Assembly: GCA_903642225.1 (NCBI GenBank)
Contig: CAHJWI010000006.1
Location: 1 to 64,000, forward strand
DNA length: 64,000 bases
From: Acidobacteriaceae bacterium
GTDB lineage: Bacteria; Acidobacteriota; Terriglobia; Terriglobales; Acidobacteriaceae
Direction of reading: 5' to 3'
Under the pieces are notes generated by a model. It saw only the letters and a list, made by a program, of their open reading frames with translations. It searched no databases and had not been told where the DNA came from. Each line of letters starts with the position of its first letter. Position 1 is the first letter of the stretch. Below, one piece after another: positions 49,081 through 50,574 of this stretch. A program made the position numbers and the translations under genes.

Positions 49081-50574
49081 ATGAATCGACGCGAATTTGT
49101 AAGCACTTCCCTGCTGACCGCCGGAGCGATGACGCTGCCTGAAAACGTGCTGGGCGAAGCTGTGGGTTCTGCTTTTCCGAGCGAATTCCTCTGGGGGACT
49201 GCCACGGCAGCGTTCCAGGTAGAAGGCGCATGGAACGAGGACGGCAAGGGTGAGTCGAACTGGGACCGGTTCAACCACACCCAAGGGAAAATTCGCGGCG
49301 GCGCGACGGCCGACGTGAGCTGCGACAGCTACCACCGCATGGCCGACGACGTGGCCCTGGTGCAGCGCATGAATATGAAAAGCTACCGGTTTTCGATTTC
49401 GTGGCCACGCATTCAACCCACCGGTGTAGGTGCGCCGAACGCGAAGGGACTGGACCACTACAGCCGGTTCGTGGACATGCTGTTGGCAAAGGGAATTCGC
49501 CCGTTCTGCACGATGTACCACTGGGATCTGCCCCAGGCGCTTGAAGACAAGGGTGGCTGGCCGAACCGTGACTTGGCCGGGTACTACGCGGAGTACGCGG
49601 GGATTTTGGGCAAGCACCTGGGCGATCGCATTACAGTCTGGGCACCATTCAACATGCCGTGGACGTTCTGCTACCTGGGGTACGGTGTAGGTGCATTTCC
49701 GCCGGGCAGGAGTGACTATGGCTTGTTCCTGAAGGCGATGCACACGGTGGGCCTGGCCCAGAGCGAGGGTTTGCGTGCGTTGAAGGCAGCATCGTCAAAG
49801 GCGACGGTGGGCAGCGCATACGGCATGGCACCGGCGTATCCAAAGACGAACAGTGAGGCGGACGGCGCAGCGACGGCGCGATATCACGCGATGAACAACG
49901 TGTTCTTCCTGCACGCTGCCATGACCGGCGAGTACCCCAAGGCGTTTGTGGGAGAGACGCCGTACAGGCAGATGGGCTTCCAGCCAAGGGACGAGAAGAT
50001 CCTGAAGGCGCCGCTGGACTGGGTCGGCTTCCACTACTACACGCGGCGCATCGTATCGGCGACGAACGGGACTGGCGGGGCAGGTAGTGCTTCGTTCGGA
50101 ACGGAGACGGAGCTGGACGGCAGCGGGAGCAGCCGCGACGACCTGACGCGCTTCCATGCGGAGATGCCGACCGAGGGTCCGCTGACGGACGCCGGGCTGG
50201 AGGTGTATCCGCAGGGCATGTACGACCTGGTAACGCAGATCTCGCGGGAGTATGACCACCCGGTGATCGAGATTACCGAAAGCGGATGCAGTTATCTCGA
50301 TGCACCGCTGGAGAGCAAGGGCGGCGGTGTACCGGACGCACGACGGATAGCCTTCTTCCGGAGCTACCTTGCCGAGCTGCAACGTGCAATCAGGGACGGT
50401 GCGCGGGTACGGTCGTATCACGCATGGACGCTGCTGGATAACTTTGAGTGGGCGGATGGATACAGCCAGCGGTATGGTCTGACGTATGTGGACTTTCGTA
50501 GTGGAAAGCGAATGCCCAAAGATTCGGCGCTTTGGTATAGCAAGGTAGCGGCGACGAACCGACTGGATGCGTAG
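49081..50574 (+). CDS. GH1 beta-glucosidase-like protein lacking the acid/base glutamate
   Basis: 497-residue exported glycoside hydrolase family 1 protein. The N-terminus [17 protein letters not shown] is a Tat-type signal (RREF). The barrel then has family residues: Q46 in [10 protein letters not shown]147 in YHWDLPQ, N191, the tyrosine region GFHYYTRR, nucleophile E400 in IEITESG, and [13 protein letters not shown]. However, the acid/base Glu of the TxNEP motif is Met-192 (PFNMPWTF; codon ATG at 49654-49656). Retaining hydrolysis of ordinary glycosides should be badly impaired, unless an activated substrate or external base is used, as plant myrosinases do with Gln at this site. No transporter or partner glycosidase is adjacent; stop is three bases from the convergent gene. 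Confidence 0.88.

Follow-up and report, generated by a model that had tools for sequence, protein, structure and literature searches.

Catalysis by GH1 enzymes depends on a pair of glutamates, one the nucleophile and the other the acid/base. Thioglycoligases are acid/base mutants, and the acid/base site is changed in them as it is in the bacterial clade described here (the Met clade). Residues that bind ascorbate and glucosinolate are a feature of the plant myrosinases. The GH1 β-glucosidases, among them Halothermothrix orenii BglA (4ptv), Thermotoga maritima BglA and Thermus Ttβ-gly, have the same fold, nucleophile and −1 subsite as the protein analysed here. A conserved bacterial GH1 subfamily that is without one of the two glutamates, and is also changed at positions linked to the choice between transfer and hydrolysis, offers a natural test of how a retaining glycosidase becomes a transferase or a binding protein.

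Simulation of the Thermus enzyme showed a hydrogen bond from Asn282 to the acid/base Glu164 with an occupancy above 90%. Asn282 is in contact with the nucleophile too, which is stabilised by the equivalent of Y320 of our protein (PMC6467970). N282T, F401S and other substitutions in this enzyme lead to more transglycosylation, and disturbing a contact of Glu392 is predicted by calculation to raise it (PMC6467970). Among HoBGLA variants, F417Y had the highest yield of oligosaccharide (57%, with 39% for the wild type) and N294T gave 29%, below the wild type (PMC4803828). Work on N220 variants of TnBgl1A from Thermotoga neapolitana led its authors to conclude that hexanol transfer is independent of the acid/base (PMC5247548). 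In rice Os3BGlu7, E440, which aligns with our E456, contacts the glycone at O4 and O6 (PMC7356692).

The acid/base glutamate is also missing from some natural GH1 proteins. Rice Os4bglu14 and Os9bglu33 carry Gln at this position, ‘as seen in thioglucosidases’ (PMC1781453). These and the plant thioglucosidases (myrosinases) are thus GH1 proteins in which the acid/base Glu is naturally missing, as in the Met clade, although they are eukaryotic and have Gln, whereas the Met clade is bacterial and has Met. The KL1 domain of β-Klotho, with Asn241 at the acid/base position and a loop that blocks the channel, was judged a non-enzyme (PMC6153294). KL1 shares with the Met clade the GH1 fold, the lost acid/base and an extra loop, which in KL1 lies at the pocket; the Met clade keeps its nucleophile and glycone residues, the comparison with KL1 being on acid/base and loop alone. 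The first of the two GH1 domains in PDB 8in1, with Asp in the acid/base column and SHF for NYY, is another natural departure. A search of open-access literature found no Met at the GH1 acid/base position among the titles and abstract beginnings listed.

A GH1 protein with methionine at the acid/base position

The window (the whole stretch of DNA analysed, 64,000 nucleotides of an Acidobacteriaceae genome) encodes a protein that matches PF00232 with 486 bits over residues 31–494 in a Pfam scan. Its AlphaFold2 model, built with 53 sequences, has a pLDDT of 90.1 and a pTM of 0.91, and the best 50 of 851 Foldseek matches in the PDB (E ≤ 0.001) are all GH1 β-glucosidases, with TM scores of 0.86–0.90 by query length and 33–42% identity. 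The full-length profile match and the barrel fold make it a GH1 protein by sequence and by fold. With 484.4 bits it also passes the cut-off of 478.5 for TIGR03356 (NCBIfam), ‘GH1 family beta-glucosidase’, so that an automatic β-glucosidase label is to be expected, and may be wrong. The features of the gene are as follows, Met rows and Glu rows being the aligned homologues with Met or Glu at position 192.

49081..50574, + strand: GH1-fold protein, 497 aa, Met for the acid/base Glu (translation, Pfam, AlphaFold2, Foldseek)
49081..49164, + strand: Tat-type N-terminal signal region, residues 1–28, MNRREFV... (sequence; motif match)
49645..49647, + strand: P189; T, I, L, V or M in Glu rows, fixed in the Met clade (45/45; 72/72 in the widened set)
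49654..49656, + strand: M192, the acid/base position (translation, alignments)
49699..49701, + strand: P207; Ala in 59/59 Glu rows, Pro in 70/72 Met rows (alignment)
50032..50034, + strand: H318 in place of the NYY Asn; His in 72/72 Met rows, Asn in 59/59 Glu rows
50071..50145, + strand: clade-specific loop after strand 6, residues 331–355, with TETE (alignments; partly pLDDT <50)
50278..50280, + strand: E400, the catalytic nucleophile, kept (71/71 readable Met rows)
50446..50448, + strand: E456; Gln in 34/71 readable Met rows (alignment; counterpart of rice Os3BGlu7 E440)
50473..50475, + strand: Y465 for a near-invariant Phe (F401 in Thermus, F417 in HoBGLA); Tyr in 68/72 Met rows (alignment)

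Translation and homologue alignment confirm the reading in the earlier note that codon 192 is ATG and lies, within WAPFNMPW, at the site of the acid/base Glu in the GH1 NEP motif, and the change from GAG (Glu) to ATG (Met) does take two base substitutions, as it said. Its further claim that the other sites are kept holds for Q46, H147, N191, the nucleophile E400 (in a TENG-type motif that here reads TESG) and DNFEW, but fails for two near-invariant residues, N318 of NYY and F465 of RFG. What sets the protein apart from the GH1 β-glucosidases is M192 where they have the acid/base Glu, H318 at the Asn of NYY, Y465 at the Phe of RFG and an extra loop after strand 6; among the residues that mark a two-glutamate retaining β-glucosidase, the acid/base Glu and the NYY Asn are missing and the glycone residues are present.

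Extent and conservation of the Met clade

Met192 is fixed in one clade, chiefly of soil bacteria. Column 192 holds Met in 45, Glu in 59 and Asp in 1 of 105 non-redundant homologues (111 long-enough frames minus six duplicates, with shorter pieces such as two L088 frames left out), and the 45 form one side of a branch with an SH-aLRT of 98 in a quick tree made without columns 189, 192, 207 and 318. A DNA pattern added 27 Met rows (29 distinct, two of them dropped at <400 aa), giving a widened set of 132 in which the 72 Met rows again form one side of a branch (SH-aLRT 99), columns 456 and 465 being left out as well. This pattern contains P189 and M192; H318 and Y465 lie outside it, so that their counts among the 72 rows are unforced.

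The exact DNA pattern for WAPFNMPW is present in 62 of the 398 genomes of the window's family, spread over 14 of 79 genera, and in the same 398 genomes neither the reversed-pattern control nor the Glu version of the pattern has a match. It replaced a shorter FNMPW pattern, dropped as too loose (77/399 genomes). Outside Acidobacteriota, the families of L058 (Pleomorphomonas), L063 (labelled Ancalomicrobiaceae) and L068 (labelled Alphaproteobacteria UBA1303) have WAPFNMPW in 6/20, 2/15 and 2/60 genomes, respectively, each count including the genome that led there. L052, L054 and L043, labelled Verrucomicrobiota or Actinomycetes, sit among Acidobacteriota in the tree and were not scored as transfers. 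A transfer to Rhodanobacteraceae (L069) was likewise dropped, the contig coordinates being as in G072, G040, G033 and G066 of the window's family; the L069 record is labelled Rhodanobacteraceae and the genome belongs to the window's own family. A single frame of 1062 aa at L069:7887-11072 combines the Met-type GH1 with a BBP2-type porin domain (PF07642). L197, a candidate for a second, distant Met-type GH1, proved to be a BLAST gap artefact, its motif being FNEI.

The Met clade is under strong purifying selection. The median dN/dS is 0.048 in Met pairs (computable for 176 of 243 close pairs), which is rough as many synonymous distances exceed 1, and 0.07 in Glu rows (14/15 pairs). Across the 45 Met rows, the codons flanking the ATG vary at synonymous sites and the Met is constant. 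The sharing of the Met by a clade, which the earlier note had put forward as a check on close homologues, is thus borne out (45/105 and 72/132, each set on one side of a branch, at SH-aLRT 98 and 99). The read error it had considered, a GAG at 49654–49656, is excluded in effect by the 45 homologues and 62 genomes, and these counts, with the clean control patterns, rule out a lone mutation too. Its view that this is not general decay is well supported by a single clade with dN/dS ~0.05 that keeps the nucleophile and the −1 subsite. Purifying selection leads us to reject decay for the clade, though broken or short copies exist (L165, L164, L176 and the two frames of L088). At L165 (G140:C2:557741-557764 and surroundings), the Met-type gene is split into overlapping frames, and relatives have intact copies.

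The earlier note also had a Tat signal placing the protein outside the cytoplasm. The window gene does have a Tat-type start, and the motif xRRx[FLVIM] is found, as a motif match only, in 39/45 Met rows, but several alphaproteobacterial carriers have no such signal. By eye, L058 and L173–L177 show no Tat-type start, L068 has a Tat-like one, and L063 and L186 show no clear hydrophobic stretch, so export is not common to all Met-type proteins. The nearest Glu-type relatives are Acidobacteriota paralogues (L013–L018, L029 and L067, with FNEPW) of about 53–58% identity; they share the Tat-type motif in 7/8 cases and differ in having Glu192, Asn318, Phe465 and Ile189 and in lacking the TE[IT]E loop stretch.

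Changes that accompany Met192

Beyond the single substitution first described, Met192 belongs to a clade-specific set made up of P189, P207, H318, mostly Y465 and partly Q456, together with the loop in 70/72 rows. At 63 positions the Glu-type rows are near-invariant (at least 58/59 identical), and only four of these carry a substitution in 90% or more of the Met rows: E192M, A207P, N318H and F465Y. E456Q is partial, being found in 34 of the 71 readable Met rows. Around these changes, Q46, H147, W148, N191 and Y320 are each retained in 72/72 Met rows, and E400, W449 and W457 in 71/71 readable ones.

M192 and H318 occur together in all 72 Met rows. An insertion behind strand 6 that includes a TE[IT]E-like stretch is present in 70 of the 72, and so is E342 within it. 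The exceptions for E342 are L068 and L184, two sequences on long branches that arise close to the base of the clade; they have M192 and H318, no loop and, with F and M respectively at position 465, no Y465. Met and His thus form the core, the other changes not being universal. In our motif alignment, N191, M192, H318 and Y320 correspond to N175, E176, N313 and Y315 of Os3BGlu7 and to N163, E164, N282 and Y284 of the Thermus enzyme; E400, E456 and Y465 correspond to E386, E440 and F449 and to E338, E392 and F401; and H318, Y320 and Y465 correspond to N294, Y296 and F417 of HoBGLA. Since Asn282 holds the acid/base by a hydrogen bond at more than 90% occupancy in the Thermus simulation (PMC6467970), E192M and N318H plausibly belong together as a single coupled change.

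Of the changed positions, three align with Thermus residues tied to the balance of transglycosylation and hydrolysis, 318 and 465 by mutation (N282 and F401) and 456 by calculation (Glu392). The overlap with transfer-controlling sites has a hypergeometric probability of 0.025, for a site list of our own choosing and a match noticed after the fact. The changes are at the same positions as in the engineered transglycosidases (Ttβ-gly N282T and F401S, HoBGLA F417Y), but in the Met clade they are natural and clade-fixed, with Met and His instead of the engineered residues. At G248, the counterpart of TnBgl1A N220 by our alignment, 71/72 Met rows have Glu or Gly and 8/8 of the nearest Glu rows have Ser.

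Tyr465 is also found in L197, a distant GH1 of the Glu type whose end looks like a 6-phospho-glycosidase signature. Because this Glu-type protein with such an end has the same Tyr, a change of sugar may instead be what Y465 and Q456 indicate.

Candidate activities and genomic context

The swap suggests transferring or binding sugars rather than plain cutting. The nucleophile and pocket are under selection and the acid/base and its partner have been replaced as a pair, and the simplest reading is for this reason a retaining enzyme that takes activated donors and favours an acceptor over water. We tentatively place first, at somewhat short of an even chance, a natural retaining enzyme without the standard acid/base, which would either be a transglycosidase or accept activated donors alone. 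In such an enzyme, the classical acid/base Glu would have gone in a single event and its surroundings been remodelled to suit, while the protein keeps the (β/α)8 barrel, the nucleophile E400 and the −1 sugar pocket. A donor with a good leaving group (an acyl, aryl, S- or similar glycoside) would form a covalent glycosyl-enzyme on E400, and without a Glu to activate water the sugar would be passed to a bound non-water acceptor. H318, at the site of the former holder of the acid/base, may steer or activate that acceptor. The more specific proposal of a natural Met/His GH1 transglycosidase subfamily, fixed in Acidobacteriota and found also in Alphaproteobacteria, is a possibility that we put at about one in three. 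If true, evolution would have altered the positions that engineers alter to make transferases from retaining glycosidases.

Some of the data speak against a retaining enzyme that transfers its sugar. Position 318 has His and not the engineered Thr, and in HoBGLA N294T lowered the yield. Nor is Y465 special to transfer; as the Glu-type L197 has it and L068 and L184 do not, we slightly lowered our confidence both in the retaining enzyme without standard acid/base and in the transglycosidase subfamily.

The rival that survives best, though we consider it rather unlikely, is a non-catalytic sugar-binding or scaffold pseudoenzyme in the manner of β-Klotho KL1, with the pocket used for recognition and covered or reshaped by the loop. 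The loss of the acid/base throughout the Met clade and the clade-specific loop after strand 6 in 70/72 rows are what it would lead one to expect, and KL1 couples an acid/base Asn with a channel-blocking loop (PMC6153294). However, E400 and the nucleophile-stabilising Y320 are present in every readable Met row, and binding alone would not need them. Another GH1 protein, from an Acidobacteria MAG (L070:7920-9455), is an intact frame of 512 aa scoring 465 bits; it lies outside the Met clade and, with A46, D192, H318, D320, G400 and R449, lacks both catalytic glutamates. L070 shows that a GH1 frame can stay full without either catalytic residue, but it has kept neither E400 nor Y320, unlike the Met clade.

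Less probable again is a retaining hydrolase with a relocated acid/base, in which H318 or a loop residue, Glu342 or Glu344, would transfer the proton. H318 is invariant in the 72 Met rows, at a site that in canonical GH1 enzymes contacts both catalytic residues according to the Thermus work (PMC6467970), and E342 is conserved in 70 of them. The pair L068 and L184, however, has M192 and H318 with no loop and no E342, so a loop Glu is not the general answer, and H318 is also found in L070, which has no nucleophile. The positions of H318, M192, E342 and E400 are given by alignment. The earlier note would have taken a neighbouring Glu in the acid/base site as a refutation; E342, which two of the 72 rows lack, is a candidate for such a Glu. 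It lies in a region of the AlphaFold2 model that is partly below pLDDT 50, and a second run with a Met-rich alignment (pLDDT 81) still did not model the loop with confidence.

Least probable is an S-glycosidase like the plant myrosinases, which would rely on a leaving group that is already activated and on a base supplied from outside. Thioglucosidases too are without the acid/base Glu (PMC1781453), but the window protein has Met where the plant enzymes have Gln, Met would probably not position water as Gln does, and the 24 neighbour proteins that were scanned show no thioglucoside theme. Among the options of the earlier note (an S-glycoside or other activated substrate, transglycosylation, or sugar binding only), the linked changes favour a transglycosidase over such a myrosinase-type enzyme with its Gln.

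Gene neighbourhoods gave no conserved clue to donor or acceptor at 40 Met-clade loci and the window. With flanks of up to 8 kb, contig permitting, and antisense or alternative-frame ORFs over the Met-type gene itself set aside, no other gene family was common to more than three of these loci, and Pfam scans of 24 neighbour proteins showed no common theme. The few sugar-related neighbours are a GH106 at L041, a GH2 at L062, and a solute-binding protein and permease at L058. In L058 (13083-16688, Pleomorphomonas), the Met-type gene is followed, some 3.6 kb downstream, by a Glu-type GH1, the solute-binding protein and the ABC permease. In the window itself, two adjoining CrtI-family desaturases (TIGR02734) and then an ATP-dependent DNA ligase of the PRK08224 type occupy 44465–47693; a link to carotenoid glycosylation through these upstream crtI-type genes was dropped, as no such family recurs at the Met-clade loci. 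No promoter-like site was found at the window GH1 gene, and one terminator-like match lies within it on the opposite strand.

Plain hydrolysis looks covered by other genes in the carriers, since a GH1 of the Glu type is found as well in 8 of 10 carrier genomes (the window genome, G687, G688, G692, G693, G694, G072 and G066); among the ten searched, G689 and G690 gave no further GH1 match. The only other GH1 match of the window genome, G000:C2:77226-78548, is of the Glu type with NEIS for NEP. Another Met-type carrier has a distant GH1 (L195, G693:C26) that in the BLAST alignment reads S191, E192, V193, with Ser for the Asn of NEP.
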